Of a DNA stretch of 64,000 nt, positions 7,376-35,256 are shown in pieces (within the stretch, counting starts at the first letter, position 1; each line of letters starts with the position of its first letter). Made by a program: the position numbers and the translations under genes. The notes beneath the pieces were generated by a model. That model worked only from the letters and a program-made list of their open reading frames with translations, was not told the origin of the DNA and ran no database searches. Source of the DNA: Chelativorans sp. Marseille-P2723 (lineage in GTDB: Bacteria; Pseudomonadota; Alphaproteobacteria; Rhizobiales; Rhizobiaceae); NCBI RefSeq assembly GCF_902809845.1, contig NZ_CADDWI010000013.1, forward strand, positions 868,001 through 932,000. The letters run 5' to 3'.

Positions 7376-7402
7376 GAATTAACTGTCGTGGCTTGCGTGA
7401 GG
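7376..7402 (-). promoter_or_regulatory. Recurrent flagellar promoter element, motA copy
   Basis: On the minus strand: CCTCACGCAAG, nine bases, then TTAATTC. The CAAG core (7395-7392) lies 51 bases before the motA start codon. The element matches six others in the window with identical internal spacing. The right half (TTAA for CTAG) is the most divergent part. It is 30 bases from the divergent copy serving the DUF1217 operon. Confidence 0.55.
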
Positions 7403-7432
7403 CTGAATGGCTGCAGGCAATTAGCCGAACAG

Positions 7433-7459
7433 CTTCGCGCAAGGCAGTCGCGCTACTCT
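7433..7459 (+). promoter_or_regulatory. Recurrent flagellar promoter element, DUF1217-operon copy
   Basis: CTTCGCGCAAG, nine bases, then CTACTCT. CAAG is at 7440-7443, 44 bases before the GTG start at 7484. It agrees with the copies before flgB, fliF, flgE and flhA in sequence, in the nine-base internal gap and in distance to the start codon. Confidence 0.65.
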
Positions 7460-7483
7460 CATGCCAACTTGCCGGAGGTTGGC

Positions 7484-8260
7484 GTGATCGACACCTATAC
7501 GAGCTACCACCTTATCGCGCGCGATATGGCGCGCTCCATCAGCCGTGTGGAACAGCAGCCGATGGCGAGCCGGGAAACCGAGTACTACCTGGAGAATATC
7601 GGGCAGGTAAAAAGCATCGAGGAGTTCGTCGCGGACGACCGATTATTCCGCTACGCGATGAAGGCGCATGGCTTGGCGGACATGGCTTATGCGAAAGCCT
7701 TTATGCTGAAAGCGCTGGAAGGTGGTATCGATGACCGGGAGAGTTTTGCCAACAAGCTCACCGACAAGCGCTACCGTGAGTTTGTCGAGACCTTCAATTT
7801 TGCCCGTTATGGCGAGAAGACGACGACATTCCATGGTTCGACTACCGGAACGGTGGAGAAATATCTGCGCCAGACGCTGGAAGAAGATGCCGGCAGGCAG
7901 AATGAAGGCGTGCGCCTGGCGCTCTATTTCCAGCGCAAGGCGGGCAGCCTGACTTCTTACTACGATTTTCTCGCCGATCCTGCCCTTGCCCAGGTCGTAC
8001 GCACCGCGCTCGGCTTTCCGCAGGCGCTCGGGCAGGCCGATATCGACAAGCAGGCCGATATGATCAAGGAGCGGCTGGATCTGGAGGATCTGAAGGATCC
8101 GGAAAAGCTTGAAGAGTTCCTCAAGCGTTTCACCATGCTCTGGGAAATCAACAACCCGTCCTTCAGTCCACAAAACTCAGTTGCGGCACTTTTCAGTCGG
8201 CCTGCTGAGTTCGGCATCTCAACCGATATCCTGCTCACCATCGCACAGATGAGAAGATAG
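7484..8260 (+). CDS. DUF1217 family flagellar-cluster protein
   Basis: A 258-residue soluble protein of the DUF1217 family, found in alphaproteobacterial flagellar clusters upstream of flgF; its molecular role is not established. The GTG at 7484 is chosen over an upstream ATG (7367) because it is preceded by GGAGG with a five-base gap and gives the family N-terminus (VIDTYTSYHLIARDMARSI). Family blocks YYLENIGQVKSIEEFV, RLFRYAMKAHGL and ANKLTDKRYREF are present. No signal peptide or membrane segment is seen, so a cytoplasmic protein is likely. First gene of the unit that continues with flgF, fliI and a membrane protein, three bases before flgF. Confidence 0.88.
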   Translation: MIDTYTSYHLIARDMARSISRVEQQPMASRETEYYLENIGQVKSIEEFVADDRLFRYAMKAHGLADMAYAKAFMLKALEGGIDDRESFANKLTDKRYREFVETFNFARYGEKTTTFHGSTTGTVEKYLRQTLEEDAGRQNEGVRLALYFQRKAGSLTSYYDFLADPALAQVVRTALGFPQALGQADIDKQADMIKERLDLEDLKDPEKLEEFLKRFTMLWEINNPSFSPQNSVAALFSRPAEFGISTDILLTIAQMRR

Positions 8261-8263
8261 ATA

Positions 8264-8983
8264 ATGCAGACCGGACTTTACGTAGCCCTGTCGTCCCAGA
8301 TGGCGCTGGAGCGACGGCTTGCAACGCTGGCGGACAATGTCGCTAATGCTGGGACAGTGGGATTTCGCGCAGGCGGCGTCAGCTTCAGCGATGTGCTGAC
8401 AGGACTTTCCGACGAGGCGGTAAGCTTCGTCTCTACCGGGAACAATTTCTATAGCACTCAGGCAGGCGGTTTGCAGGAGACGGGCAACCCGTTTGACTTC
8501 GCGCTGCAGGGCGAGGCCTGGTTTGCCGTGGAAACACCGGCAGGTCCGATGATGACGCGGGACGGCCGTTTCACCATGCTCGATACCGGTGAGCTTGTAA
8601 CTCATGAAGGGCATCCAGTACTCGATGCCGGCGGGGCTCCTTTGGTGCTGGATCCCTTGGCCGGGCCGCCGGACGCAGGTGCAGATGGCATGCTGCTTCA
8701 GAATGGCCAGCAGGTAGGTGCTATCGGTCTGTTCTCCTACATTCCCGGCCCCAACGCCACGCGCTACGGCAATTCCGGGTTCCTGCCCGGTAATCTGCCG
8801 CAGCCGGTGGTCGATCAGCCGGATGTCGGTGTTGCCCAGGGATTTCTGGAGAACTCCAACGTCAATCCGGTTAACGAGATGATGCGGCTCATCCAGGTTC
8901 AGCGCACCTTCGAGCAGGTGACGGCGCTCATGCGCGATAGCGATGCCTCGATGAAGAACGCCATCAAGGCGATAGGTTCCTGA
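8264..8983 (+). CDS. flgF: Flagellar basal-body rod protein FlgF
   Basis: Proximal rod subunit, exported through the flagellar type III system. The 239 residues match the family. The N-terminal rod motif is QMALERRLATLADNVANAGTVGFRA and the C-terminal coiled segment is NVNPVNEMMRLIQVQRTFEQV, the pair that forms the D0 domain. There is no signal peptide, as expected. Its stop overlaps the fliI start (TGATG), giving translational coupling. Confidence 0.95.
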   Translation: MQTGLYVALSSQMALERRLATLADNVANAGTVGFRAGGVSFSDVLTGLSDEAVSFVSTGNNFYSTQAGGLQETGNPFDFALQGEAWFAVETPAGPMMTRDGRFTMLDTGELVTHEGHPVLDAGGAPLVLDPLAGPPDAGADGMLLQNGQQVGAIGLFSYIPGPNATRYGNSGFLPGNLPQPVVDQPDVGVAQGFLENSNVNPVNEMMRLIQVQRTFEQVTALMRDSDASMKNAIKAIGS

Positions 8984-10377
8984 TGGGACAGAGCACGGCT
9001 GAAGCAGCGGAGCACATCGGAACAGGGAGTTCCAACCCGCTTGCCGCGCTGGGGTGCCTCTATCGGAGGTTCAGCACTCCCATGCAGATGGTCCGGCATG
9101 GCGGGCGGATTACGGAAGTAACGCCCACACATTACCGTGTGCGCGGCATTTCCGAAAAGGCCCGGCTAGGGGAGATCATCTTCTATCGGCAAGACGACCG
9201 GGATTATCGGGGCGAGGTTGTGCGCATCTCCGAGGACGAGGTGATTGTCGCGCCCTTCGAGCACTCAGGCGAGGCGAGTCTTGGTCAGGCAGTTTTCGCC
9301 ATGGGAACGCTGGACATCACCGCCCATGCGAGCTGGCGCGGCCGGGTCATCGACGCATTGGCGCGCCCTCTCGATGGCGGTCCGGCGCTGTTTCGCCCCG
9401 CCTCGGAGCCGGGTGGCACTCGGGGCGCACCGCCGGCCCTGCGCAGGCAACGTATTGCCGAACCGTTTCTTACCGGCGTACGTGTGGTGGATCTGTTCTC
9501 CCCCCTTTGTCTCGGGCAGCGCATCGGCATCTTCGCAGGTTCCGGCGTTGGAAAATCGACACTTCTTGCCATGCTTGCCCGCGCGGAAGCCTTCGATACA
9601 GTGGTGATCGCCATGGTCGGCGAGCGGGGCAGGGAGGTGCGCGAGTTTCTGGAAGACACGCTCGGCGAAACGGGCATGCGCAAGACCATTGCAGTGGTTG
9701 CAACGAGCGATGAAAGCGCAATGATGCGCCGCCGCGCCGCCGACACCGCAATGCGGGTGGCCGAACATTTCCGCGATTGCGGCGAGAAGGTTCTTCTTCT
9801 GCTCGATTCGATTACCCGCTATGCGCATGCGGCGAGGGAGGTGGCTGCGAGTGCGGGAGAGCCGCCGGTTGCGCGCGGCTATCCAGCCTCCGTCTTCACC
9901 GATCTGCCCCGCCTTCTCGAAAGGGCGGGACCTGGCGAAGCTGGATGCGGCTCCATCACGGCAATCTTCTCCGTCCTCGTCGATGGGGACGACCATAATG
10001 ACCCGGTTGCAGATTCCGTGCGGGGCATCCTCGATGGTCATCTCGTGCTCGACCGTGCAATCGCGGAGCAGGGGCGTTTTCCTGCAGTCAACCCGCTCGC
10101 TTCCATATCACGCCTTGCCGACCGTGCATGGACGGACGACCGAAAACCCGTGATCCAGCGTCTTAAGGCGATGATAGCCCGCTTCGAAGAGACAAGGGAT
10201 ATCCGGCTGCTCGGCGGATTCCAGGCAGGAGTCGATCCCGAACTCGACCTTGCCGTGCGACAGGTGCCCTTCATCTACGAGATCTTGCGGCAGTCGCCCA
10301 CGGATCCGCTTTCACGGGACCCGTTCGCAGAACTAGCAGCTCACCTAAAGGCAAAGGAGACATCCAATGGCGGATAA
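8983..10377 (+). CDS. fliI: Flagellar export ATPase FliI
   Basis: Hexameric ATPase that helps unfold and deliver export substrates to the FlhA/FlhB gate. It has 464 residues with the F1-beta-like fold: Walker A GSGVGKST at residues 186-193, the MVGERGREVREF block and Walker B in VLLLLDSITRYAHA. The N-terminal barrel contains the family sequence ALARPLDGGPAL. The stop region overlaps the following gene by 11 bases. Its usual partner, a FliH-like protein, is encoded 10 kb away after fliF. Confidence 0.96.
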   Translation: MGQSTAEAAEHIGTGSSNPLAALGCLYRRFSTPMQMVRHGGRITEVTPTHYRVRGISEKARLGEIIFYRQDDRDYRGEVVRISEDEVIVAPFEHSGEASLGQAVFAMGTLDITAHASWRGRVIDALARPLDGGPALFRPASEPGGTRGAPPALRRQRIAEPFLTGVRVVDLFSPLCLGQRIGIFAGSGVGKSTLLAMLARAEAFDTVVIAMVGERGREVREFLEDTLGETGMRKTIAVVATSDESAMMRRRAADTAMRVAEHFRDCGEKVLLLLDSITRYAHAAREVAASAGEPPVARGYPASVFTDLPRLLERAGPGEAGCGSITAIFSVLVDGDDHNDPVADSVRGILDGHLVLDRAIAEQGRFPAVNPLASISRLADRAWTDDRKPVIQRLKAMIARFEETRDIRLLGGFQAGVDPELDLAVRQVPFIYEILRQSPTDPLSRDPFAELAAHLKAKETSNGG

Positions 10378-10969
10378 GCTTGCAGGGCTTGTGCTGCCTG
10401 ACAAGACGCCCTTGGAGACGGCCGCCGATCCGCTCGAATATTATCCCGGCCAGAGACAGAAGGTCCCCCCATCCGGTGTTGCGCGCCCACGCGAAACCCC
10501 AGCCCGTTTTCGCGGCAACGACTGGCTGCTGGCCGCTGGCGGCGCGCTTCTGGCAGGTATCTGCGCTATCTTCCCGTGGTACATCTTCCTACATCAGGAA
10601 AGTTTTGGAATTCGCCCGTTCACTTTGGCCGAACAGCCCAAGCTCCACAATCTTCGGCCGGGGCTCCGTGACGATGAGGCGACTTTCGTAATGCCGAACC
10701 TCGATTTCGTTCCAACAGGAACTGTGCCCGAAACACCTGAGCAGCTCTCGGAAAGCCTGTATGAGCAGCCCTTTCCGGGCGACCGCCGCAAATTCCGTCT
10801 CATTGCCGCGGAAAATGGACGCGCAATGATCGAAGATGACGACGGATTCTGGATGGTGCAGCCCGGCTCGCTTCTTCCGGATGGCAGCCGCGTCTCCCGC
10901 GTCGAACGGCGCGCCCAGACGTGGGTTCTCGTCACCAGCGCAGACACGGAAATCCAACTCTCACGCTGA
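10367..10969 (+). CDS. Membrane protein of unknown function downstream of fliI
   Basis: A 200-residue protein with a proline-rich cytoplasmic N-terminus (about 50 residues), one membrane segment at about 53-75 (WLLAAGGALLAGICAIFPWY) and a C-terminal domain of about 120 residues predicted outside the cytoplasm. The tail looks like a small beta domain (KFRLIAAENGRAMIEDDDGFWMV, GSLLPDGSRVSRVERRAQTW). The ATG overlaps the end of fliI and has a good aaaggag site. The position between fliI and flgB recurs in rhizobial flagellar clusters as I recall them, which argues for a flagellar role, but I know of no assigned function. Its topology, inner-membrane anchor plus periplasmic domain, resembles rod- or stator-associated proteins. 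Confidence 0.8.
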   Translation: MADKLAGLVLPDKTPLETAADPLEYYPGQRQKVPPSGVARPRETPARFRGNDWLLAAGGALLAGICAIFPWYIFLHQESFGIRPFTLAEQPKLHNLRPGLRDDEATFVMPNLDFVPTGTVPETPEQLSESLYEQPFPGDRRKFRLIAAENGRAMIEDDDGFWMVQPGSLLPDGSRVSRVERRAQTWVLVTSADTEIQLSR

Positions 10970-10981
10970 CCGAGGCGCAAG

Positions 10982-11008
10982 GCCCGCGCAAGACTGACGG
11001 CCTACCCT
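10982..11008 (+). promoter_or_regulatory. Recurrent flagellar promoter element, flgB copy
   Basis: GCCCGCGCAAG, nine bases, then CTACCCT. CAAG is at 10989-10992, 48 bases before the flgB ATG. It lies in the 67-base gap after the fliI unit and marks the start of the long flgB-to-fliP operon. Confidence 0.6.
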
Positions 11009-11036
11009 GCTGCCAGTAGAATCTGGATGAGAGCTT

Positions 11037-11414
11037 ATGGAAGCAGTCAACCTGTTCGATCTGGCCGCGCATCAGGCCCGGTGGCTTTCGGTCCGCCAGG
11101 CAGCAGTGGCTGGCAATATCGCCAACATTAATACGCCAGCTTACAAGGCAGTGGACGTGGAGCCCTTCGAAAAGGTGCTTGACGGATCACGCGTCGCGAT
11201 GAAGGCGACCCATGGCCAACACCAGCACCACGGGGTTACGCCGGCATCCTTCCTGCTAGACAGGAGCGAGGACCCGAAGATGCTGCCTTCCGAGAACAGC
11301 GTTGTGCTCGAAGATGAACTGGTCAAGGCCGGCGAAGTCCGCCGCGCATTCGAGCTCAACACCGCCATCGTGAAGGCCTTCCACCGCATGATCATGATGA
11401 CGGCGAGAGGTTAA
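11037..11414 (+). CDS. flgB: Flagellar basal-body rod protein FlgB
   Basis: Proximal rod subunit with 125 residues, the usual length. The rod motif is in the N-terminal part ([21 protein letters not shown]) and the C-terminal helix ([20 protein letters not shown]) completes D0. A His-rich linker (THGQHQHHG) is seen in the middle. First gene of an operon running without large gaps to fliP at 17012, under the conserved element at 10982-11008. Confidence 0.95.
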
Positions 11415-11416
11415 GC

Positions 11417-11836
11417 ATGGACCCGCTTTCCGCTGCCGTAAAGATCGCTGGCTCGGGTCTTACTGCCCAATCAGAACGCATGCGCATCGTCTCGGAAAAC
11501 CTCGCCAACGCACAGTCCACAAGCGATGTGCCGGGCGGCGATCCATACCGCCGCAAGACAATCAGCTTTGCGGCCGAGCTCGACCGGGCAACCGGCGGCG
11601 CAATGGTGCAGATTTCCGCAATCGCGCGCGATCCGGCCGACTTCTCGGTCGAATACATGCCGGGTCACGAAGCAGCCGACGAGTTCGGCTATGTGAAGAT
11701 GCCAAATGTAAACATGCTGGTCGAGATAGCGGACATGCGCGAGGCCAATCGCGGTTACGAGGCGAACCTTCAGACGATCAAGCAGGCTCGCGAACTCATT
11801 TCCATGACCATCGATCTTCTGCGGAGCAATGGATGA
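11417..11836 (+). CDS. flgC: Flagellar basal-body rod protein FlgC
   Basis: Rod subunit of 139 residues. N-terminal rod motif [20 protein letters not shown] and C-terminal [19 protein letters not shown]-type block, both diagnostic of FlgC. Two bases after flgB and overlapping fliE by four bases (ATGA), so translation is coupled through flgB-flgC-fliE. Confidence 0.96.
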
Positions 11837-12138
11837 TATCCGGTATCGCAAATCTTCCGCGTATTTCTGCGATCGGCACCGATCCGGTACTTTCCGAGCC
11901 GAAGCTTGCGCCCACCGATGGTGATGCATTCTCGGCCATGGTGAGCGAACTGGCAGCCGACACCGTCTCGCGCCTTACGAAGGCGGAAAACCTATCCCTC
12001 CAGGCATTGCAGGGAGAGGCGGAAACACGCGCCGTCGTGGATGCGGTTATGGATGCGGAACAATCGCTTCAAGCGGCCATCGCCATCCGTGACAAGATCG
12101 TGACCGCCTATCTGGAAATCAGCCGAATGGCGATCTGA
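11833..12138 (+). CDS. fliE: Flagellar hook-basal body protein FliE
   Basis: FliE joins the MS ring (FliF) to the rod and is the first protein exported. The 101 residues are normal. The conserved C-terminal half ([40 protein letters not shown]) is clear. Its ATG overlaps the flgC stop and flgG follows 11 bases later. Confidence 0.94.
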
Positions 12139-12149
12139 GGAGTAGCCCG

Positions 12150-12938
12150 TTGAAAGCCCTTTCCATCGCCGCCACCGGCATGTCCGCCCAGCAGACCAAT
12201 CTGGAGGTCATCGCCAACAATATCGCTAACATCAATACGACCGGCTTCAAGCGGGCGCGGGCAGAATTTTCCGATCTGCTGTACCAGGTGGAGCGGCTGC
12301 AGGGCGTGCCCGAACGGGCCAACCAGAACATCGTGCCGGAGGGCGCGAATATCGGGCTTGGCGTCAAGACGGCGGCGGTGCGCAATGTGCATGTGCAGGG
12401 TTCGCTCACCAATACCGGTAACAAGCTGGACGTGGCGCTGGCCGGTAAAGGCTGGTTCCAGATTGAGGGAGCCGATGGCGAGATGCTCTATAGCCGTGCC
12501 GGGGCCTTCAACACCAACGCAAATGGCGAGCTCGTCACAGTGGATGGATTTCCGGTGATGCCAGCTATCGTCGTGCCCCCGGAAACGGTGGATGTGATCA
12601 TCAACAAGTCCGGCCAGGTCTTCGCCCGCGTGGATGGCGAGCCCGACCTGCAGGTGCTGGGGCAGCTCACCCTTGCCACTTTTTCCAATGAAGCAGGACT
12701 CGCTCCCATTGGAAACAACCTCTTCCGCGAGACGGTCGCATCCGGCCCTGCCAATGTCGGCGTGCCTGGCGAGCCGGGCTTTGCGACCGTCGAGCAAGGA
12801 TATCTGGAAGCCTCAAACGTAGATCCCGTGAAGGAAATAACCGATCTGATCTCCGCCCAGCGCGCCTATGAAATGAACTCCAAGGTCATCAAGGCGGCCG
12901 ATGAAATGGCCGCCACAGTGACCCAGTCGTTGCGATAG
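12150..12938 (+). CDS. flgG: Flagellar distal rod protein FlgG
   Basis: Distal rod subunit, 262 residues, as in the family. It begins with a TTG codon at 12150, preceded by GAGGAG about seven bases away; no ATG gives the canonical [19 protein letters not shown] start. The rod motif [15 protein letters not shown] and the C-terminal [20 protein letters not shown] and [11 protein letters not shown] blocks are present. It lies between fliE and flgA in the flgB operon. Confidence 0.96.
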
Positions 12939-12940
12939 CG

Positions 12941-13414
12941 ATGCAGAACCGGCGGTGCAGTAAACGGTTTTTTCTGGCGGGTCTGCTGGCGGCCCTCTCC
13001 TTCGTTGCCACGCCCGCCGGCGCCCAGGATATCGTCGTCGTGCCTGCACGCGTCATCTATCCCGGCGAAACAATCTCTGCCGACGCTATTCAGGAGATGC
13101 TGCTGCGCAAGCCTCCACGGGGCGCCGCGTCCATCGCCCGCGAGGTCGACGAACTGGAAGGCAAGGTAGCCCGACGCACGCTTCTGCCCGGGCGGCTGAT
13201 CCCCCTTTCCTATATTCGCGCACCCTATCTGGTGGAACAGGGGTCTACGGTCACGGCGATCCTCACCCATGGCGCCCTGACCATCTCCGTCCTTGCTGTC
13301 CCGCTCCAGCACGGGGCGGCAGGCGAACAGATCAGGGTGCGCAATATCGACAGCGGCGCCATTTTCACCGGGATCGTCATGCAGGACGGCACGGTGCGGG
13401 TTGGGGCGTCATGA
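12941..13414 (+). CDS. flgA: Flagellar P-ring assembly chaperone FlgA
   Basis: Periplasmic protein that helps FlgI form the P ring. It has 157 residues: a Sec signal peptide (about 1-28, with the motif AGA before QDI), then the SAF domain with RVIYPGETISADAIQE and the C-terminal GEQIRVRNIDSGAIFTGIV block followed by a glycine-valine tail. The end overlaps the flgI start by ATGA. It sits next to its client gene, flgI. Confidence 0.93.
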   Translation: MQNRRCSKRFFLAGLLAALSFVATPAGAQDIVVVPARVIYPGETISADAIQEMLLRKPPRGAASIAREVDELEGKVARRTLLPGRLIPLSYIRAPYLVEQGSTVTAILTHGALTISVLAVPLQHGAAGEQIRVRNIDSGAIFTGIVMQDGTVRVGAS

Positions 13415-14520
13415 TCTTCAGGGGCTTGTTGTCCGCACTGGTGGTCCTTGCCGCCATGCTGCCCGCCTTTGCAGGCGGAAAGACCCAGATCAAGCATATC
13501 GCTGAGCTTCAGGCTGCGCGGGACAACCAGCTTGTCGGTTATGGACTGGTGATCGGCCTGAACGGTACGGGTGACAGGCTGCGCAATGCACCGTTTACCG
13601 AGCAATCAATGCGGGCGATGCTCGAAAATCTGGGCATCGCCACCGAAGGCGGAAGGGCAAGGGCGGAGAATATCGCGGCGGTGATTGTCACCGCAAATCT
13701 GCCACCATTCGTGCAGTCGGGCGCCCGGATCGACGTTACCGTTTCTTCCCTCGGGGATGCTAAATCGCTTGCCGGTGGCATGCTGGTGATGACTCCGCTG
13801 CGCGCAGCTGATGGCGAGATATATGCCGTGGCGCAGGGGCCGGTCATCGTTTCAGGCTTCCGTGCCGAAGGACAGGCGGAAACGCTTACGCAGGGCGTTC
13901 CCACTTCCGGGCGCGTTCCCAACGGTGCCATCATCGAGCGCGGTGTGCCAGTTTCCTTCGACGATCTTCTGGCGCTGACCCTGCAACTCAGGAACCCGGA
14001 CTTCTCGACCGCCGTGCGCATTGCCGACGCGGTCAACGCATATACCAGCCGGCGCTTCGGCGCGCGGCTTGCAAGCGAGCGGGACGCGCGAACCGTCGTC
14101 ATTCAAAAGCCCAAAGGGATCTCTGCCGCGCGATTCTACGCCGAAATCGAGAATCTGCACGTCCATGTAGATGCACCGGCGCGTGTGGTCGTTGACGAGC
14201 GGTCAGGCACGGTCGTGATCGGCAATGATGTACGTATCTCCCGCGTCGCCATCAGTCATGGCGCGCTTACCGTACGCGTCACCGAGATGCCACGGGTTGT
14301 GCAACCGGAGCCGTTCAGCCGCGGCGAGACGGCGGTCGAGCCCTTTACAGCGATCGACGCTAGCCGGCCCGATGCGAACGTCGCCGTACTTGATGGGCCG
14401 GACTTGCAAACGCTCGTCTCCGGCCTCAACAGGCTCGGGGTAAAGCCCGACGGGATCATCGCGATCCTGCAAGGAATCAAGACGGCGGGCGCGCTCCAGG
14501 GCGAGCTGGTCCTGCAGTAA
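13411..14520 (+). CDS. flgI: Flagellar P-ring protein FlgI
   Basis: Forms the P ring around the rod in the peptidoglycan layer. It has 369 residues with a Sec signal peptide (cleavage near AFAGG). Family blocks include NQLVGYGLVIGLNGTGD, NIAAVIVTANLPPF, RIDVTVSSLGDAKSLAGG and the C-terminal DLQTLVSGLNRLGVKPDGI with IAILQGIKTAGALQGEL. Coupled to flgA by overlap; motE follows 16 bases later. Confidence 0.97.
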   Translation: MIFRGLLSALVVLAAMLPAFAGGKTQIKHIAELQAARDNQLVGYGLVIGLNGTGDRLRNAPFTEQSMRAMLENLGIATEGGRARAENIAAVIVTANLPPFVQSGARIDVTVSSLGDAKSLAGGMLVMTPLRAADGEIYAVAQGPVIVSGFRAEGQAETLTQGVPTSGRVPNGAIIERGVPVSFDDLLALTLQLRNPDFSTAVRIADAVNAYTSRRFGARLASERDARTVVIQKPKGISAARFYAEIENLHVHVDAPARVVVDERSGTVVIGNDVRISRVAISHGALTVRVTEMPRVVQPEPFSRGETAVEPFTAIDASRPDANVAVLDGPDLQTLVSGLNRLGVKPDGIIAILQGIKTAGALQGELVLQ

Positions 14521-14536
14521 GGGGGGAAGGAAAGAG

Positions 14537-15753: not shown

Positions 15754-15768
15754 CCGGAAAGCATCGTC

Positions 15769-17012: not shown

Positions 17013-17050
17013 TTCCAGCTTCAAAAGACCATCGAACCCAGCCGCTATTA

Positions 17051-17157
17051 TCCATTTGGTAGCAAATGGAGGGCATAACAGTGCCGATGCATGACGGAGT
17101 GGGTTCCAGTAGTACCCACGGCATGATGCCTCTCCGTCATCACCGGTAAAGCCCGGT
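17051..17157 (+). promoter_or_regulatory. Structured region in the flaA 5' leader
   Basis: Four perfect inverted repeats lie in the 182-base gap before the first flagellin gene. TCCATTTG/CAAATGGA (17051-17070) has a four-base loop. ATGACGGAG/CTCCGTCAT (17091-17099 with 17132-17140) encloses GTGGGT/ACCCAC (17099-17119) and GGCATGATGCC (17120-17130), which together can form a three-way junction. ACCGG/CCGGT is at 17142-17157. No U-run follows any of them, so terminator function is unlikely. A possible -10 (TATTAT, 17046-17051) would start transcription just before this region. In Caulobacter the flagellin mRNA leader is bound by FlbT, and flbT is present here at 30805; a similar role is inferred. 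Confidence 0.6.
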
Positions 17158-18177: not shown

Positions 18178-18194
18178 ATAGGTGCCCTCACCCG

Positions 18195-18237
18195 TTAAGA
18201 ATCCATTAACCATACACCTGTACCCATCGTTAACCAT
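18195..18237 (+). promoter_or_regulatory. CtrA-type binding boxes upstream of flaB
   Basis: A perfect TTAA-N7-TTAA box occupies 18195-18209. Its right half extends to TTAACCAT (18206-18213), and an identical TTAACCAT lies at 18230-18237, 24 bases further on. TTAA-N7-TTAA and TTAACCAT are the known CtrA recognition patterns in Caulobacter and Brucella. The sites lie 42-84 bases before the flaB start codon, where a promoter would be. That CtrA binds here is an inference. Confidence 0.7.
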
Positions 18238-19160: not shown

Positions 19161-19209
19161 TGAGCACGGCAAGTCCCTGCTCGCAACTCTTCCCGTAAAC
19201 GTTCGAAGG

Positions 19210-19236
19210 CTTCGCACAAGCTTCGCCGCCTAGGCT
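19210..19236 (+). promoter_or_regulatory. Recurrent flagellar promoter element, fliF copy
   Basis: CTTCGCACAAG, nine bases (CTTCGCCGC), then CTAGGCT. CAAG is at 19217-19220, 51 bases before the fliF TTG. It is one of the two best copies, nearly identical to the one before flhA. In Brucella, the Rem homologue FtcR is reported to act at the fliF promoter. Confidence 0.7.
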
Positions 19237-25738: not shown

Positions 25739-25773
25739 AAATCATGAGTCGTTTCTGCATCAACGAAACTTTC

Positions 25774-25788
25774 TTAAGAAATTATTAA
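25774..25788 (+). promoter_or_regulatory. CtrA-type box upstream of rem
   Basis: A perfect TTAA-N7-TTAA (TTAAGAAATTATTAA) 71 bases before the rem start codon, in the only intergenic gap around that gene. The half-sites are on the same face as in known CtrA-activated promoters. A box of this form is rare by chance in GC-rich DNA. It suggests that CtrA controls rem. Confidence 0.7.
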
Positions 25789-25858
25789 AAAAGATGGTTG
25801 TCTGTGATTCCGTCCACCATGTACCACTTGGGTAGGTAACTGATTCGGGGGCGGGTCA

Positions 25859-26539
25859 ATGATAGTGGTGGTGGACGAGCGCGAGCTCGTCACAGAAGGT
25901 TATACCTCACTTTTCAATCGGGAAGGTGTCGCAACCGCCGGCTTCCGGCCGAATGAATTCAATGACTGGGTTGAATCCGTAGCCGACGAGGATTTGAGCT
26001 CGGTTCGAGCTTTCCTCCTCGGCCAGTGCAGGTCATCTGAAGCGCCGGCCAAGCGGATTCGGGATCGCACGCATGCGCCGGTGATAGCGCTGGCAGAACA
26101 GCATTCCCTGGAAGACACATTGCGGCTCTTCGAGGCCGGCGTCGATGATGTGGTAAGGAAGCCGGTGCATGTGCTGGAAATCCTGGCGCGTATCAGCGCC
26201 ATCAACCGGCGGGCGCAGCAACAGCAGGACGATTATCTGCAGATTGGCCGTCTGCGCATCTTCAACAACGGCCGCGATCCGGAAATCGATGGCGAGGCTG
26301 TGCCATTGCCGCGCCGCGAGCGCCGAATCCTGGAATATCTCGCCAACAACGCTTCGCGGCGGGTGACCAAGACGCAGATATTCAACGCCATCTACGGGAT
26401 CTTCGATGAGGATGTCGAGGAGAACGTTGTGGAAAGCCACATAAGCAAGCTGCGCAAGAAGCTGCGGCAGAAGCTCGGTTTCGATCCGATCGACTCCAAG
26501 CGGTATCTTGGTTACCGGCTCGTGACATCAGGGCGATGA
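25859..26539 (+). CDS. rem: OmpR-type flagellar regulator Rem/FtcR
   Basis: Orphan response-regulator-like transcription factor controlling flagellar genes in exponential growth (Rem in Sinorhizobium, FtcR in Brucella). It has 226 residues. The receiver-like domain (1-118) keeps the acidic pair (VVVDERE) and the Lys in [15 protein letters not shown]. Where the phospho-acceptor Asp normally lies it reads [10 protein letters not shown], with no Asp. The winged-helix domain (about 128-224) is intact: [48 protein letters not shown]. It stands alone between the transglycosylase and flgE, with a CtrA-type box upstream. Confidence 0.92.
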
Positions 26540-26548
26540 AAGGAACAG

Positions 26549-26575
26549 CTTCACGCAAGCTGCGTCTTTTAGGCT
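26549..26575 (+). promoter_or_regulatory. Recurrent flagellar promoter element, flgE copy
   Basis: CTTCACGCAAG, nine bases, then TTAGGCT. CAAG is at 26556-26559, 48 bases before the flgE ATG. It begins 10 bases after the rem stop, so flgE can be transcribed independently of rem. Confidence 0.65.
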
Positions 26576-26603
26576 GCCGCTACGCGAGCAATAGGAGAGC
26601 CCG

Positions 26604-27884: not shown

Positions 27885-27932
27885 CAGAAGCTTACGAGGA
27901 AGCTGGCGTATGTCGGCCCAGAAAGAGAAGAG

Positions 27933-29390
27933 ATGTCGCTAACACAAGCCCTTAACATTGCGCAGTCAGCGCTGTTTAACCGGTCGCACCAGACAAGCAT
28001 CCTGTCTCGCAACATCTCCGAAGTTTCAAATCCGGATTACGCCCGTCGCACCGCTGTTCTCTCCAGCATGGTGCCGGGTGTGAATATTACCAGTATCCGT
28101 CGCGCTACGAGCGATGCCTTGTTCCGGCAGAATCTTGCTGCGATCTCCGCTTGGCAGGGACAGTCGGCGCTTTCCCAAGGTTTGAACACGCTTCAGGTGC
28201 AGGTCAATGGGGTTGATAACGCGTTCTCGCCTGCTTCCGCGATCGGCAACCTGCATATAGCGCTGCAAACCTATGCTGCGGCGCCCTCCAACCGGAACCT
28301 TGCCGAAAACGCCGTCGAAGCAGCGCGCCAGGTCGTCCGCTCCCTCAATAACGGAACGGCGGCAATCCAGGCCTTGCGGGCCGACACCGATAAGGAGATC
28401 GCCCGCGCGGTAAGTGAATTGAACCGTTTCCTCGCCGAGTTTGAGGTCGCCAACAAGGAGATCGTGGCGGGAACGGTAAGCGGCCGCGACGTGTCCGACG
28501 CACTAGACCGGCGCGATGCACTGATAAAGCAGATATCCTTGTATCTGCCCGTCTCCACCATAGCGCGCGCCAACAATGATATGGTGCTTACGACGGCCGG
28601 CGGGGTCACGCTTTTTGAAACAGTTGTCCGGCCAGTATCGTTCAGCGCAAATGATTTATATACCGCCGAAGCCACTGGCAATGCGATCTATGTCGATGGA
28701 GTGCCACTGGCGGCAGGTAGCGGCGGCAATACAACAGCTTCTGGCAGCCTTGCGGCGCATCTTCAGCTTCGGGACCATGTTGCGGTGCGTATGCAGCAGC
28801 AGCTCGACGAAATAGCAAGCCGCCTGATCATTACGTTCAGGGAGAAGGACCCGTTGGGCACGCTGGCAGATGCAACCGGCCTGTTTACCTGGCAGGAGGG
28901 GCCGGATTTACCGCCTCCAGACAAGCTTGTGGATGGTCTTGCCGGTTCAATCCGCATAAACGCTGCAATGGATTCAAGCGTCGGCGGCAATCCCGAGCTG
29001 CTGCGCGACGGGGGGGCCAATGGTGCCAGCTACGTCCACAACAGCGAGGGCGCGTCCTATGCCACCCTTCTTAATTCGCTCCTCGCTGAGTTCGACGAGC
29101 CGGAAGCTTTCGATCCGGATGTGTCGCCCGGCGGCGCGCGCAGTCTGCTGTCTTTTTCCGGCGACGCGATAAGTTGGCTGGAAGCCTTGCGGAAGGATGC
29201 CGCGTCTGGGGCAGAGGCCAAGGAGGCTCTGGCGAATCACACGGCGACGGCACTTTCCAACGAAACGGGCGTGAATCTAGACGAGGAAATGGCTCTACTT
29301 CTGGAACTGGAGCAGTCCTACGAAGCTTCCGCCCGTCTCCTTGCGGTCATCGATGAAATGCTCGCCACGCTCCTGGAGGCCACTCGCTAA
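27933..29390 (+). CDS. flgK: Flagellar hook-associated protein FlgK (HAP1)
   Basis: Junction protein between hook and filament, 485 residues. N-terminal block ALNIAQSALFNRSHQTSILS and RNISEVSNPDYARR, with the C-terminal NLDEEMALLLELEQSYEASA block typical of FlgK. It lies 48 bases after flgE and one base before flgL. Start ATG 27933 has gagaagag upstream. Confidence 0.95.
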   Translation: MSLTQALNIAQSALFNRSHQTSILSRNISEVSNPDYARRTAVLSSMVPGVNITSIRRATSDALFRQNLAAISAWQGQSALSQGLNTLQVQVNGVDNAFSPASAIGNLHIALQTYAAAPSNRNLAENAVEAARQVVRSLNNGTAAIQALRADTDKEIARAVSELNRFLAEFEVANKEIVAGTVSGRDVSDALDRRDALIKQISLYLPVSTIARANNDMVLTTAGGVTLFETVVRPVSFSANDLYTAEATGNAIYVDGVPLAAGSGGNTTASGSLAAHLQLRDHVAVRMQQQLDEIASRLIITFREKDPLGTLADATGLFTWQEGPDLPPPDKLVDGLAGSIRINAAMDSSVGGNPELLRDGGANGASYVHNSEGASYATLLNSLLAEFDEPEAFDPDVSPGGARSLLSFSGDAISWLEALRKDAASGAEAKEALANHTATALSNETGVNLDEEMALLLELEQSYEASARLLAVIDEMLATLLEATR

Positions 29391-29391
29391 A

Positions 29392-30441
29392 ATGAAGGTT
29401 TCCTTCATATCCACTAACGCAATCTCCCAGACGTTGCGCTACCAGATGATGCGAATGCAGGCGCAGCTTGTGCAGCATCAGAAAGAGCTGGCGACCGGCA
29501 GACTAGCCGATCCGGGAGTTTCGCTGGGTGCGCGAGCGGGCACCGGCTTCTCCATGGCTCGCGAGATCGACAGGCTGACGGTGCAGATCGATGCCAACAG
29601 CGTCGCCCAGAACCGGCTCGCGGCCACGCAGAACAGTCTCACCCAACTCGGCGATGTCAGCCAGGAGTTGCTATCCACGCTCACGGCTGCTTTGTCCGGG
29701 GTAAACGACACGTCCATCGTGCGGAGCGCTGCCAATCGGGCACTGGAATCCATGACCAGCGTGCTCAACAGCAACCTGAACGGTGAATATCTGTTTGCCG
29801 GCATCAATACGGATGTGAGGCCGCTTAATAGTTACACCGATGCCGGCTCGCCGGCCAAAGATCACTTCGATACGCTTTTCGAGGGATATTTCCACTTCGA
29901 TCAGGACGATCCGGCAGCCAGCGCAATCACCAATACACAAGTGGAGGAGTTTCTTGACGCGGTGATTGCCCCCAGTTTCATGGGTGCTGATTGGTACGTT
30001 ACCTGGTCCAACGCATCCGACCAGAAGATCAGCAGCCGCATTTCTGCAAATGAGGTAGCTGAAACATCGATTACCGCGAACGGCCCGGGCATCCGCAAGT
30101 TCGCAATGGCGGCGACGGTACTTACGGAATTTCTCGATCTTCCCCTCAATGAGGAAGCACGCAAGGCGCTTTACCAGCGGACCGTCGGTCTAGCCGGTGA
30201 AGCCGTTTCAGCCATTGCCTCGATGCAGGCAGAAGTTGGCCTTGTCGAAACCCGCGTCAAGGATGCGAGCGATCGCATCTCCTCGCAAATCGATCTATTC
30301 CAGACGTTCATCTATGACCTTGAGGGCGTCGATCCCTACGAAGCTTCAACACGCGTGAATGAACTTCTGACGCAAATAGAGACCTCATACGCACTTACAG
30401 CGCGCATTCAGCAGCTCAGCCTGCTGCGCTACCTGCCCTGA
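29392..30441 (+). CDS. flgL: Flagellar hook-filament junction protein FlgL (HAP3)
   Basis: Second junction protein, 349 residues, flagellin-like at both ends: FISTNAISQTLRYQMMRMQA and, at the C-terminus, YEASTRVNELLTQIETSYAL followed by TARIQQLSLLRYL. The ATG at 29392, one base after the flgK stop and with tggagg upstream, is preferred to an in-frame upstream ATG inside flgK. Confidence 0.94.
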   Translation: MKVSFISTNAISQTLRYQMMRMQAQLVQHQKELATGRLADPGVSLGARAGTGFSMAREIDRLTVQIDANSVAQNRLAATQNSLTQLGDVSQELLSTLTAALSGVNDTSIVRSAANRALESMTSVLNSNLNGEYLFAGINTDVRPLNSYTDAGSPAKDHFDTLFEGYFHFDQDDPAASAITNTQVEEFLDAVIAPSFMGADWYVTWSNASDQKISSRISANEVAETSITANGPGIRKFAMAATVLTEFLDLPLNEEARKALYQRTVGLAGEAVSAIASMQAEVGLVETRVKDASDRISSQIDLFQTFIYDLEGVDPYEASTRVNELLTQIETSYALTARIQQLSLLRYLP

Positions 30442-30454
30442 CCACACGGAGCGA

Positions 30455-30808
30455 ATGCTCATGTACCATTTTTCCTATGATGAGGTTCAGTCCGACTCGG
30501 TGGCCGATGCAAAGGACCGTGAACGCCAGTTGCTCGCGAAATCGATCGACCTGCTGAAGACCGCTCGCAAAGCAGGAGCGCAGTCGCGGGAGTCCATCGA
30601 GGCGATCCTCTTCATGAACCGGATCTGGACCTCCCTTATCGAGGATCTCGGACATCCCGACAACGCGCTGCCAAAAGAACTGCGGGCAAACCTAATCTCG
30701 ATCGGGCTTTGGCTCCTGCGCGAGGGCGAGGACGTGCGGCAGGGCCGATCTGACAATTTCGACGGGCTGATTGAAATCTCAGAGATCATACGCGACGGCC
30801 TGCGATGA
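30455..30808 (+). CDS. flaF: Flagellar biosynthesis regulator FlaF
   Basis: Flagellin expression and assembly factor. In Caulobacter FlaF is needed for flagellin translation and secretion and opposes FlbT. It has 117 residues (115 if the ATG at 30461 is used) with the family blocks [36 protein letters not shown] and [18 protein letters not shown]. It overlaps flbT by ATGA, so the two antagonists are translationally coupled. Confidence 0.94.
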
Positions 30809-31248
30809 AAAACACGCTGAAAATATCGCTCAAAGCCGGTGAGAAGATCTATGTAAACGGCGCGGTCATTAGGGTCGACCGCAAGATTTCGCTTGAGTTC
30901 CTGAACGATGTGCAGTTCCTCCTGCAGCAGCACGTACTTCAGCCTGAGGATGCGCGCACGCCGTTGCGCCAGCTCTATTTCATCGTCCAGGTGATGCTCA
31001 TGGGGCAGGCGGGTGAGGGGATGGAAAAGACGCGCCAACTCTTCCGAGATACGCTTGCAAATCTTCTCTCCACGTTCCGGAACGAGCGCATACGGGCAGA
31101 GCTCAAGCACATCGACACGCTGGTCGGCCAAGGCAAAGTTTACGAGGCGTTGAAGGCGATCCGCGCGCTCTACCCGATCGAGGAACAGATATTCAACAAA
31201 GACAGCCTGCAAGAAGAGCAAGTCTTTGCCAAGGCTGTGGGAGAATAG
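30805..31248 (+). CDS. flbT: Flagellin post-transcriptional regulator FlbT
   Basis: RNA-binding regulator that in Caulobacter binds the flagellin mRNA leader and lowers its stability when the hook is unfinished. It has 147 residues with the conserved opening [20 protein letters not shown], then [20 protein letters not shown] and [11 protein letters not shown]. It lies between flaF and flgD. A structured leader that could be its target is found before flaA at 17051-17157. Confidence 0.95.
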
Positions 31249-31249
31249 A

Positions 31250-31639
31250 ATGAATGTTTCATCAGTGACCGCTGCCACGCAAAGCCAGCAGATGGCAGGC
31301 TCGCCACAGACAGTCGATTATCAATCCTTTCTTAGACTGCTTGTCGCCCAGATGAAAAACCAGGACCCGACAAGCCCCATGGACTCGACGGACTACGTGG
31401 CTCAGCTTGCCACCTTCTCTCAGGTCGAGCAGTCGGTGCAGATGAACGGGAAACTAGGGCAGCTTCTTGCGGCTTCCTCGCTTTCGCAGGCAGCCGGCGT
31501 GGTAGGAAGGGAAATCACTTCCGCCGACGGGACGATCACAGGCATCGTCAAGGAAGTGAAGCTCTACAGCGATGGTGTCGTCGCCACACTTGAAAGCGGG
31601 CAGGAGGTGATTGTCGGCCCGGGCATGACAATCCGCTGA
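31250..31639 (+). CDS. flgD: Flagellar hook-capping protein FlgD (short form)
   Basis: Scaffold for hook assembly. Only 129 residues, the short form common in rhizobia: the N-terminal capping region is present (QSFLRLLVAQMKNQDPTSPM, DYVAQLATFSQVEQSVQMN), followed by a truncated beta domain instead of the full FlgD core. The ATG at 31250, just after the flbT stop and behind gggaga, gives the usual N-terminus. fliQ follows directly. Confidence 0.92.
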   Translation: MNVSSVTAATQSQQMAGSPQTVDYQSFLRLLVAQMKNQDPTSPMDSTDYVAQLATFSQVEQSVQMNGKLGQLLAASSLSQAAGVVGREITSADGTITGIVKEVKLYSDGVVATLESGQEVIVGPGMTIR

Positions 31640-31640
31640 T

Positions 31641-31907
31641 ATGAACGAGGCGGATGCGCTCGATATCGTCCAGTTTGCGATCTGGACGGTGCTTTTGGCA
31701 TCCGGTCCCGCAGTGATCGCCGCCATGGTTGTGGGAGTCGGCATCGCCCTCGTTCAGGCTCTGACGCAAGTGCAGGAAATCACCCTGACCTTCGTACCGA
31801 AGATCGTCGCTATCCTACTGGTCGTCGCGATATCCGGGCCCTTCATCGGCGCGCAGATATCCTCCCTGACGACAGTGCTCTTCCAGCGGATCGAGAACGG
31901 GTTCTAA
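31641..31907 (+). CDS. fliQ: Flagellar export-gate protein FliQ
   Basis: Two-helix membrane subunit of the FliPQR channel, 88 residues. Two hydrophobic segments at about 13-37 and 50-72 surround the family block VGVGIALVQALTQVQEITL and FVPKIVAILLVV. It is one base after flgD and ends the flgE unit; a 63-base gap with a promoter element follows. Confidence 0.96.
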   Translation: MNEADALDIVQFAIWTVLLASGPAVIAAMVVGVGIALVQALTQVQEITLTFVPKIVAILLVVAISGPFIGAQISSLTTVLFQRIENGF

Positions 31908-31922
31908 ATAGCCGGAGTCCGC

Positions 31923-31949
31923 TTTCACACAAGCTTCGCCAACTAGTCT
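31923..31949 (+). promoter_or_regulatory. Recurrent flagellar promoter element, flhA copy
   Basis: CTTTCACACAAG, nine bases (CTTCGCCAA), then CTAGTCT. CAAG is at 31930-31933, 41 bases before the flhA ATG. ACAAGCTTCGCC is identical to the fliF copy. Confidence 0.7.
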
Positions 31950-31970
31950 CCCTTTCCAATGGAGGCGTGA

Positions 31971-34058
31971 ATGGCACTAAGCGAAAGCATTACCGGGAAG
32001 CCTGCCGGGAAGCATGGGCGCGATATCGGCTTTGCCGTTGGCATCGTCATCATCCTGTCGGTGCTTTTTCTGCCCGTTCCGCCCTTCCTGATCGATATTG
32101 GGTTGGCCTTCTCGATCGCCTTTTCCGTTCTGATCCTGATGGTGGCGCTCTGGATCCAGAGGCCGCTCGACTTTTCGTCCTTTCCGACGATCCTGATCAT
32201 CTCCACCATGTTACGTCTTTCGCTGAACATTGCGACGACGCGGCTGATCCTTTCGGAGGGGCATCAGGGGACGAACTCGGCCGGCTATGTGATCGGCGGT
32301 TTTTCCAAGCTGGTAATGAGCGGCGATTTCGTCATCGGGCTGATCGTGTTCCTCATCCTGATCGTGGTGAATTTTATCGTCATCACAAAAGGCTCGACCC
32401 GGATTGCCGAGGTGGGCGCACGTTTCACGCTCGATGCCATTCCCGGCAAGCAGATGTCGATCGACGCCGACCTTTCAGCCGGTATCATCGACGAAAAGGA
32501 GGCGCAAAGCCGTCGCCGGGAACTGGAAGAGGAAAGCTCCTTTTTCGGCGCCATGGACGGCGCGTCCAAGTTCGTGCGCGGCGATGCAATAGCCGGCCTC
32601 ATCATCACCGCCATCAATATCGTTGGCGGAATTGCCATCGGCTATGCGCGTCACGGCATGGACCTGGCAGCAGCGTCAGACGTTTTCACCAAACTGTCGG
32701 TGGGCGATGGCCTTGTCACCCAGATCCCGGCCCTGATCGTCTCGCTTGCGGCGGCTTTGCTTGTCTCCAAGGGCGGCACGCGTGGTTCCGCGGATCAGGC
32801 GGTCTTCGGCCAACTTGGAGCCTATCCGCGGGCACTGTTCATGGCAGCCACGTTGCTCGGCCTACTTGCAGTCATGCCGGGCCTGCCAGCCCTGCCTTTC
32901 TTCGTTCTTGGCGGGGCGATGGCGGGACTTGCCTATGTGCTGCCAAAGCAAGAGAAGCAGCGCGCCGCCGAGGCGGAAGAAGTCAAGCGGCAGCAGGAGC
33001 TTGCTGCAACGGAAGAAGAGCAGAACTCGGTCAAAGCTTCGCTTAGAACTGCCGAGGTCGAGCTTCTCGTCGGCAAGCAGCTTTCCACCCGCCTCATCGC
33101 CTCGCATCAGGAACTTGCCTTCCGCATGAACAAGATGCGTAAGAAGTTCGCAACGCAATACGGCTTCGTCGTGCCGGAAGTGCGCCTGGCGGACGATTTT
33201 TCCATTCCGCCCAAGAGCTATCAGATCAAGATTCACGGCACGGTGATTGCGGAGTATCAGTTGCGCGTAGGCGAACTGATGGTTCTGCTCGGCAGCAAGT
33301 CCGCCCCGGATCTTCCCGGCGAGGAGGTGAAGGAGCCGGCCTTCGGCATGCGGGCCTATTCGGTGCCCGAAATGTTTGCCGACGATCTGAAGAACGAGCA
33401 GCTTCCCTATGCCGACAATATGTCGGTTCTGCTCACACATCTTTCCGAGGTCATCCGCAACAACCTTCCGCAGCTTCTGTCCTACAAGGATATGAAGGCC
33501 CTGATTGAACGACTCGATCCGGAGTACCGTAAGCTTTGCGACGAAATCTGCTCATCGCACATCACCTATCCGGGGCTGCAGGCGGTGCTGAAGCTGCTTC
33601 TTGCCGAGCGCGTCTCGATCCGCAACCTGCATCTTATCATCGAGGCCATTGCCGAGATCGCCCCGCATATCCGACGTACAGAGCAGATCGTTGAGCATGT
33701 ACGCATCCGCATGGCGCAACAGCTTTGCGGCGATCTGAGCGACAGTGGCGTGCTCAAGGTGCTCAGGCTCGGCAATCGCTGGGATCTTGCCTTCCACCAG
33801 GCCGTAAAACGCGATGCGAAAGGAGAGGTCCGCGAGTTCGACATCGATCCGCGCCAGCTTGAAGAGTTTGGCCAGGAAGCAGCCAAGACAATTCGCGCCT
33901 ACATTGATGCTGGCGAGCGTTTCGTGCTGGTGACCGCGCCCGAAGCACGGACCTATGTGCGCATGATCATAGAGCGGATGTTCCCGACCTTGCCGGTGCT
34001 CAGCCATGTGGAGATCGCCAGAGGCGTCGAGATTTCGGTCCTGGGAAGCATTTCCTGA
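31971..34058 (+). CDS. flhA: Flagellar export-gate protein FlhA
   Basis: Main membrane gate of the flagellar export machine. It has 695 residues: eight or so membrane segments in the first 320, with the FHIPEP-type block [40 protein letters not shown] and [17 protein letters not shown] cytoplasmic substrate-docking domain (about 360-690) includes [13 protein letters not shown] and the closing [18 protein letters not shown]. It heads the short unit flhA-fliR-(fliJ-like). A large overlapping open frame in +1 is a shadow. Confidence 0.97.
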
Positions 34059-34064
34059 TCACAT

Positions 34065-34811
34065 ATGCTGGAGACCGCTGTTCTTGCCGCGTTCCTTACC
34101 TTCTGCCGGGTTGGGGCATGCTTCATGCTCATGCCCGGCTTCGGCAGTGCGCGCGTGCCCATGCAGGTGAGGCTCTTTGTGGCCGTGGGCGCCTCCCTCG
34201 CATTGTTCTCCCATCTTTGGGACGTGATCGCGCCCTATGCCTCAAGGGAGGCGGCGACTCTCCTGCTTCTTATCGGCTCGGAACTTCTGATCGGCTCGCT
34301 CATCGGCCTTGTGGCGCGTCTTTACGTGCTCGCCGTACAGTTCATCGGCTCCGCCATTGCCACCATGATCGGCTTTGGCATGGCTGGAGGTGGCATCACG
34401 ATCGAGGAAAACGAGCCGCAACCTGCCGTCTCGGCGATCATCTCGTTCTCGGCGCTGATGTTGCTTTTCGTTCTCAATTTTCACCACGCCATCATCGAAG
34501 CTCTGGTGAGTTCATATCGGCTTGCTCCCATTGAAACCCTGTTCAATCCGCAATCTGCCCTCGTCGACATTGCCGACACGCTTTCCGAGGCGTTCTTTGT
34601 CATGATCCGGCTCGGTAGCCCCTTCGTTGCCTATGCGATCCTGATCAATCTGGCCTTCGGCTTCATCAACAAGCTTACGCCGCAGATTCCGATCTATTTC
34701 ATCTCCTTGCCTTTCGTCATCGCCGGGGGACTCCTGCTGCTGTATTTCGGCATTAGCACCTTTCTTGCCCTCTTCGCCGATGGCTTCTTTCCCACCACCA
34801 TCGAAAGATGA
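34065..34811 (+). CDS. fliR: Flagellar export-gate protein FliR
   Basis: Third component of the FliPQR channel, 248 residues with about six membrane segments. Family features include the N-terminal TFCRVGACFMLMPGFGSARV, MIGFGMAGGGITIEENEPQP and the C-terminal INKLTPQIPIYFISLPFVIA. It lies six bases after flhA and is followed within a few bases by a small coiled-coil gene. Confidence 0.96.
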   Translation: MLETAVLAAFLTFCRVGACFMLMPGFGSARVPMQVRLFVAVGASLALFSHLWDVIAPYASREAATLLLLIGSELLIGSLIGLVARLYVLAVQFIGSAIATMIGFGMAGGGITIEENEPQPAVSAIISFSALMLLFVLNFHHAIIEALVSSYRLAPIETLFNPQSALVDIADTLSEAFFVMIRLGSPFVAYAILINLAFGFINKLTPQIPIYFISLPFVIAGGLLLLYFGISTFLALFADGFFPTTIER

Positions 34812-34815
34812 ACGA

Positions 34816-35205
34816 ATGGAACGGCGGCAGAGACTGGCAAAGCTCCTCACCCTCCAGCGGCATGTGGAGGAATTGCACAAGGCGCGCCACGCGGCCTTCC
34901 TCAAGGAAGCGGCGTCCGCGCAGAATGAGGCGGTCGAGATGGCTGCGCGGCTACAGGCCACTGATAGCCTGGCGTCACTTTTCCCCGATCTTTATCACCG
35001 CAGGATCGCGCAGGCGCTGATCCGGCAAACGGACTACGAGGAAAAGGCGGCCCAAGAGGCACGCAAGGTCGCGGCGGCGAACGCGCGCGCCAATGTCGTG
35101 GAACGGAACTATCGTGACGTTATGAGAAAGCACGAGCGCAGCGCCGAGGAGAAGGCGCTTCTCGAACTTGTCGAGCAGAGGCTGAAATATGAAAGCTCAG
35201 AATAG
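34816..35205 (+). CDS. Coiled-coil protein, FliJ-like
   Basis: A 129-residue, highly charged helical protein (RQRLAKLLTLQRHVEELHKA, ERNYRDVMRKHERSAEEKAL). Length, coiled-coil over the whole chain and location behind fliR fit a FliJ-type export chaperone, the central stalk of FliI, which otherwise has no candidate in the cluster. The ATG at 34816 follows the fliR stop by four bases; earlier in-frame ATGs lie within fliR. There is no strong Shine-Dalgarno, consistent with coupled translation. Sequence similarity to enteric FliJ is not diagnostic, so the assignment is tentative. Confidence 0.6.
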   Translation: MERRQRLAKLLTLQRHVEELHKARHAAFLKEAASAQNEAVEMAARLQATDSLASLFPDLYHRRIAQALIRQTDYEEKAAQEARKVAAANARANVVERNYRDVMRKHERSAEEKALLELVEQRLKYESSE

Positions 35206-35229
35206 CTGCTTCACCTTGCCGAGGGCAAG

Positions 35230-35256
35230 TCTGCCACAAGCTTCCCCTGCCATATT
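35230..35256 (+). promoter_or_regulatory. Recurrent flagellar promoter element, flgJ-like copy (weak)
   Basis: TCTGCCACAAG, nine bases, then CCATATT. CAAG is at 35237-35240, 47 bases before the GTG at 35284. The left half (CACAAGCTTC) is good; the right half is degenerate. Confidence 0.45.

Follow-up and report, generated by a model that had tools for sequence, protein, structure and literature searches.

Seven flagellar units in a 64,000-nucleotide (nt) stretch of the Chelativorans sp. Marseille-P2723 genome (contig NZ_CADDWI010000013.1, positions 868,001 to 932,000; hereafter the window) are each headed by a shared sequence element, referred to here as the box. The sites are a real, conserved and flagellum-specific promoter class. 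Their predicted layout is that of an OmpR/PhoB-family activator site combined with a sigma-70 -10 element, and it is highly probable that the seven boxes constitute one flagellar promoter class, in which predicted sites for the activator Rem are joined to a sigma-70 -10. The seven shared sites had been observed in an earlier note on this sequence; that observation was confirmed, and the interpretation given to the element was partly supported.

The seven boxes

Direct inspection of the window showed that all seven 27-base elements of the earlier note were present at the positions, on the strands and with the spacing that had been claimed. Each box comprises an upstream half, a core half and a -10 hexamer:

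7376..7413, minus strand: motA box; upstream half 7403-7413, core half 7392-7402 (CCTCACGCAAG), -10 7376-7381 (TAATTC)
7422..7459, plus strand: box of the DUF1217-flgF-fliI unit; upstream half 7422-7432 (ending ACAG), core 7433-7443, -10 7454-7459 (TACTCT)
10971..11008, plus strand: box of the flgB unit; upstream half 10971-10981 (ending CAAG), core 10982-10992, -10 11003-11008 (TACCCT)
19199..19236, plus strand: box of the fliF unit; weak upstream half 19199-19209, core 19210-19220, -10 19231-19236 (TAGGCT)
26538..26575, plus strand: box of the flgE unit; upstream half 26538-26548 (ending ACAG), core 26549-26559, -10 26570-26575 (TAGGCT)
31912..31949, plus strand: box of the flhA unit; weak upstream half 31912-31922, core 31923-31933, -10 31944-31949 (TAGTCT)
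35219..35256, plus strand: box of the flgJ-like (rod-binding) unit; upstream half 35219-35229 (ending CAAG), core 35230-35240, -10 35251-35256 (CATATT)

The clearest direct repeat was that of flgB. The upstream half of the flgE box overlapped the 3' end of rem, and the flhA box was located directly downstream of a fliQ-like frame. Re-measurement of the distance between the C of the core CAAG and the first start-codon base gave 41 nt for flhA, 44 for DUF1217 (with the start codon set at GTG 7484), 47 for flgJ, 48 for flgB and flgE, and 51 for fliF and motA, so that the range of 41-51 nt given previously holds for all seven. The downstream products were identified as MotA and FlgF (NCBIfam) and as DUF1217, the rod-binding protein PF10135, FliF, FlgE and FlhA (Pfam). 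The flgB gene and the remaining genes were named from the earlier note and from their position in clusters matched in 20 relatives, FlgB also from the Sinorhizobium meliloti annotation.

Scans of the window and genome

The previously proposed consensus, CTTCRCRCAAG-N9-CTAG, was matched without mismatch at fliF and at no other position of the window or genome. When up to three mismatches were allowed, the string gave nine matches in the window compared to a shuffle mean of 16.1, and neither flgB nor flgJ was among the nine. Because the consensus was not enriched over shuffles in the window, string counts provided no evidence for the element. A strict two-half pattern found flgB only in the whole genome, and profiles were therefore needed.

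In upstream alignments of four promoters from up to 15 genomes the element stayed in place and much of its surroundings drifted. With a matrix iterated on its own data, 118 of the 124 regions exceeded 6 bits, a count that is not independent since the matrix was iterated on the regions that it scores; the six failures were four regions of genome G025 and two flgJ regions. Removal of these four G025 regions and of four flgJ regions left 116 sites, 112 of them unique. Two sequence profiles were used. Model R1, which was sequence-only, was built from 49 of the 112 sites, seven of them from the Chelativorans genome itself. Model R2 was built from 45 of 93 diverse sites, with no records named Chelativorans and with only fliF, flgE, flhA and flgJ promoters; it is therefore a fairer test than R1.

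The earlier note had suggested a genome scan with a weight matrix, and had stated that frequent occurrence of the motif inside genes would count against it. In scans of the 3.77-megabase (Mb) genome, in which the best 150 of 2036 (R1) and of 1686 (R2) first-look candidates were scored, exactly the seven boxes led with R1 (expectation value, E, 6e-5 to 0.036; next match 0.51), and the same seven again occupied ranks 1-7 with R2 (E 3.8e-4 to 0.17; next match 0.62). The fliF box was the top match for both models; the motA box ranked fifth with R1 and third with R2. The motA, DUF1217 and flgB boxes were recovered by R2 even though these promoter types were absent from its training set. The strength of the scan lies in all seven ranking first; the margins of flgB and flgE were modest. 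In a window scan with filters off the seven boxes scored 14.2-22.5 bits and the best other match, inside genes or elsewhere, 8.1 bits. In this genome seven flagellar units begin with a box, and no further site comes near these scores. The R1 matches below the seven (at the rpoZ start and in other coding regions) looked like chance and were rejected; the R2 scan gave two extra matches below the seven.

Anatomy of the box

When similarity to CAAG was measured across the 116 sites, a second peak was found 11 base pairs (bp) upstream of the core, at 2.82 of 4 (other offsets: mean 0.98, standard deviation 0.42). The two half-sites form a direct repeat, CNAG-N7-CAAG, of which the fuller form is CAAGCYTCRCRCAAG. 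The upstream half carries CAAG in flgB and flgJ and is CNAG-like in motA, DUF1217 and flgE. Most of the element had been recognised in the earlier note, but it extends 11 bp further 5'.

The -10 part was assessed with the box columns only, the -10 columns being unused, at 137 unique sites from 76 named loci not titled Chelativorans. In 115 of them (fliF 42, flgE 47, flhA 26) CAAG was followed by TAnnnT at a distance of exactly 10 nt, and any other offset accounted for at most one site. In the flgJ group TAnnnT was found at 10 nt in none; CATANT-like hexamers were present there instead. The distance from box to start codon varied (among the commonest values, 45-81 nt for fliF, 48-157 for flgE and 51-75 for flhA), whereas the gap from box to TAnnnT was fixed, which points to a role in transcription and not in translation. 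A TTGAC(A)-like -35 hexamer 16-18 bp before the -10, as in a normal sigma-70 promoter, was not seen in the column frequencies. Direct repeats about 11 bp apart, placed in the -35 region at a fixed distance from the -10, are the arrangement of OmpR/PhoB boxes.

Boxes in relatives

Across 80 named loci, sites of 16 bits or more were present before fliF in 71/71, flgE in 73/77, flhA in 31/33 and flgJ in 15/18, and before control genes in 0/705. With the 76 non-Chelativorans loci and a matrix from the genus of the window the corresponding values were 67/67, 69/73, 28/30 and 14/17; none of 665 upstream regions of eleven control genes had a 16-bit site. At the same threshold, no site was present within 160 nt upstream of flaA (0/62), flaB (0/64) or rem (0/76). 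Sites thus lie before class II units and not before rem, as expected of a Rem regulon.

Reading of 28 unassigned 16-bit matches in the named loci placed 14 upstream of flagellin genes, 11 of them at 171-184 nt and three by position before fliF. The other 14 comprised two in the flagellin region, four at flgE and three at flhA with a more distant start, one flgJ-like site, one unexplained site and three near rem. In three loci (L131, L135 and L156; Tianweitania, Oryzicola) box-like sites of 18-20 bits were observed on the minus strand approximately 200-650 nt before rem; an origin as flhB codons was ruled out, as there is no flhB there.

In S. meliloti Ak57 (a 3.7-Mb record labelled pSymB that contains the flagellar cluster), R1 found seven operons, headed by fliF, motA, DUF1217, flgB, the motB unit, flgE and flhA (not annotated in the record), with E values of 1.3e-5 to 0.0014. 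A weak matrix match preceded the rod-binding protein gene. On the coding strand, the upstream regions of rem, the four flagellins and the two LuxR-type genes had no site. Another two R1 matches were judged false, one inside flhB and the other, a partial match to model positions 6-26, on the opposite strand in the gap between two flagellin genes. Phyllobacterium had sites at flgB, fliF, flhA, flgE and flgJ.

The absence of the box before flaA, flaB and rem, claimed in the earlier note, is true of the Chelativorans genome; in Mesorhizobium, however, a site lies 171-184 nt before a flagellin gene. Sixteen Mesorhizobium loci, which are close relatives and not sixteen independent cases, have this extra box in the flagellin region (first 2 kilobases (kb) of L123, L126, L130, L136, L137, L139, L141, L142, L144, L145, L146, L148, L149, L155, L158 and L173). 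A CtrA-type sequence, TTAA-N7-TTAAC, follows the box in 16/16; counted from the first base of the 40-base site, the step is 54-55 bases in 14 loci and 78-79 in two. At the seven promoters of the window TTAA-N7-TTAAC was not found, and with at most one mismatch it occurred in the window only at 18194-18210 and 25773-25789, a count not enriched over shuffles. The first of these is perfect, reads on both strands and lies 70-85 nt upstream of flaB; further on there is a second TTAACCAT. The other is a one-mismatch copy upstream of rem.

Just 3' of the flagellar cluster, an 825-residue frame (39142-41619) had no Pfam match at E≤0.001.

Rem as the candidate regulator

Gene context, co-occurrence and site geometry make Rem the most likely reader of the box, the predicted regulator being encoded within the cluster:

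25859..26539, plus strand: rem; response-regulator-like protein with an OmpR/PhoB winged helix (Pfam PF00486, 8.4e-17), the proposed box reader

The match of Rem to the receiver domain PF00072 was below the Pfam cut-off. G55, invariant in 13 aligned orthologues, occupies the position of the RegX3 residue that we take to be the phospho-acceptor aspartate. The predicted structure (predicted local distance difference test score 87, predicted template modelling score 0.54) matched OmpR/PhoB regulators, several of them solved with DNA; full-length template modelling scores were only 0.4-0.5, and the structural agreement is therefore at the domain level. Among the matches was 2hqr, whose title describes a phosphorylation-independent atypical orphan regulator. 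Loop 181-188 is acidic in the orthologue alignment and was likened to the PhoB loop that is said to face sigma region 4 (PMC3973317, in part). Passages of PMC9812332 describe Rem as aspartate-less and phosphorylation-independent and ascribe to it direct activation of class II genes. The order VisNR, Rem, class II genes is given in PMC8429497 and PMC9812332, the passages of which contain no binding site.

Co-occurrence was surveyed in 151 genomes of the family (Rem at E≤1e-30, R1 match at E≤0.01, FlgI at E≤1e-20). Rem was present in 127, an R1 match in 107 and both in 105; only 2/24 genomes without Rem had a match (G020 and G118, one each). The association was significant (Fisher p = 2.6e-12, phylogeny ignored). 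Nine of ten Rem-bearing comparison genomes had two to eight R2 matches, not all of them in the cluster. Ten genomes positive for FlgI and lacking a Rem orthologue, mostly from other families and hence a weak control, gave one partial R2 match at E≤0.1 (G036). In three genomes of the same genus that lack both Rem and FlgI the best R1 matches had E values of 0.018-0.063. FlgI was present in 123 family genomes, 122 of which also had Rem. Five genomes have Rem without FlgI (G059, G067, G086, G120 and G157); either these assemblies are incomplete or Rem was retained after loss of the flagellum.

Matches were also seen outside the cluster in G024 and G018, many without the -10 part. Strong matches in genomes without Rem had, where read, no recognisable flagellar neighbour and were rejected. 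On a Microvirga plasmid, a partial box (L221:19781-19820; R1 E 0.0087) lies approximately 140 nt before the gene of a Rem-like regulator that is about 48% identical; no flagellar gene is annotated in the 40 kb shown.

Several observations weigh against Rem sites joined to a sigma-70 -10. The fliF and flhA boxes have weak upstream halves, the motA -10 (TAATTC) has no final T, and the flgJ -10 is a CATATT variant missing the first T. No R1 match at E≤0.01 was found in 22 of the 127 Rem-bearing family genomes. G025, with a Rem 45% identical, has no box at its promoters and no R2 match, and single stray R1 matches occur in genomes lacking both Rem and FlgI (G020, E 0.0025; G040, E 0.009). Rem is retained or lost along with the flagella, so that co-occurrence cannot separate Rem from other flagellum-linked regulators. 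Lastly, chromatin immunoprecipitation sequencing of FtcR, a master regulator of flagellar genes from the same family as Rem, yielded a different motif in Brucella melitensis, TGTGGGCA, unrelated in sequence to the box (PMC9456535, in part). This motif had no copies in the window (2.2 expected) and was not present at the seven targets, which conflicts with a simple equation of Rem and FtcR sites. Thus, of the earlier proposal of a Rem/FtcR site or promoter class, Rem stands as the most likely regulator, its binding being predicted from sequence, and the published FtcR motif does not fit.

Alternative explanations

A different regulator linked to the flagellum, VisNR or one not yet described, may read the box instead, with Rem acting elsewhere or indirectly. 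The joint presence of Rem, flagella and sites is a correlation not unique to Rem, and the published FtcR motif is unlike the box. However, VisNR reportedly acts on rem (in the passages of PMC8429497), yet all 76 rem upstream regions are boxless; moreover, the 11-bp direct repeat and its position suit an OmpR/PhoB protein, and rem is the only such gene identified in the conserved cluster. We regard this explanation as improbable.

A dedicated -35/-10 pair for an alternative sigma factor, which the earlier note had also considered, would account for the fixed distance between the two parts. The 3' part, TAnnnT, is nevertheless of the general sigma-70 type, and the 5' part consists of tandem repeats, the outer of which is variable. 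A spacing of 15 bp separates CTTCRC from TAnnnT, and nothing resembling TTGACA appears in the columns at 16-18 bp. The FliA profile gave three matches in the genome, none above the curated cut-off. Such a pair is very unlikely. Slimmer still are the chances of an RNA-level leader element or a chance resemblance, which the unenriched string consensus would favour, given that the box keeps its distance from TAnnnT and not from the start codon and that held-out scans exclude chance.

Comparison with known systems

The Pho box of PhoB at phoA has tandem 11-bp halves in place of the -35, approximately 10 nt before the -10. Its layout is that of the box described here; the sequence is different and PhoB is controlled by phosphorylation. 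The Helicobacter pylori HP1043 site, TTTAAG-N5-TTTAAG, is likewise an 11-bp repeat that overlaps the promoter, and HP1043, like Rem, belongs to the OmpR/PhoB family; it is an orphan with a degenerate receiver that does not need phosphorylation (PMC8345958, in part). It differs in its site sequence, in being an essential global and not a flagellar regulator, and in the head-to-head binding proposed for it (same passages). The candidate FeuP motif of S. meliloti, TTCA-N7-TTCA, and the CtrA consensus, TAA-N7-TTAAC, share the 4-N7-4 tandem layout, likewise for response regulators, but have other sequences and other genes; the box is not among the three de novo motifs in the passages of that start-site paper (PMC3616915). 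In the literature searched, parts of papers included, no Rem recognition sequence was given besides the FtcR motif. This kind of site is therefore already known; the box itself had no counterpart in the literature searched and may already be in print.

Proposed mechanism and significance

In the favoured reading, that of Rem sites joined to a sigma-70 -10, each box would be an activator-dependent promoter. A Rem dimer, in a predicted tandem orientation, would occupy the two 11-bp halves; its receiver appears degenerate, the phospho-acceptor position having probably been lost. With TAnnnT as the -10, the downstream half would span approximately -33 to -23, the usual place of the -35. Rem would hold sigma region 4 there, and sigma-70 polymerase would start transcription from the -10 sited 10 nt onward. 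A single regulator would thus co-activate the rod, ring, hook, export and motor operons, with rem itself and, in the Chelativorans genome, the flagellins presumably under other control.

More tentatively, with the chances slightly below even, a dead-receiver regulator and a rigid layout (tandem CAAG box, 10 nt, TAnnnT) may, across the rhizobial family, take the role that FliA or sigma-54 has elsewhere for a whole organelle. Lineages may then rewire the programme by moving boxes, as suggested by the separate box of the S. meliloti motB unit and by the Mesorhizobium flagellin box with its CtrA-type site, which would tie flagellin to the cell cycle. With the box defined and its gap to the -10 fixed, the regulon can be recognised from sequence in many plant symbionts, and the conflict with the FtcR motif becomes open to settlement. 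The system would also be a clear example of an entire organelle programme controlled by a phosphorylation-blind response regulator.

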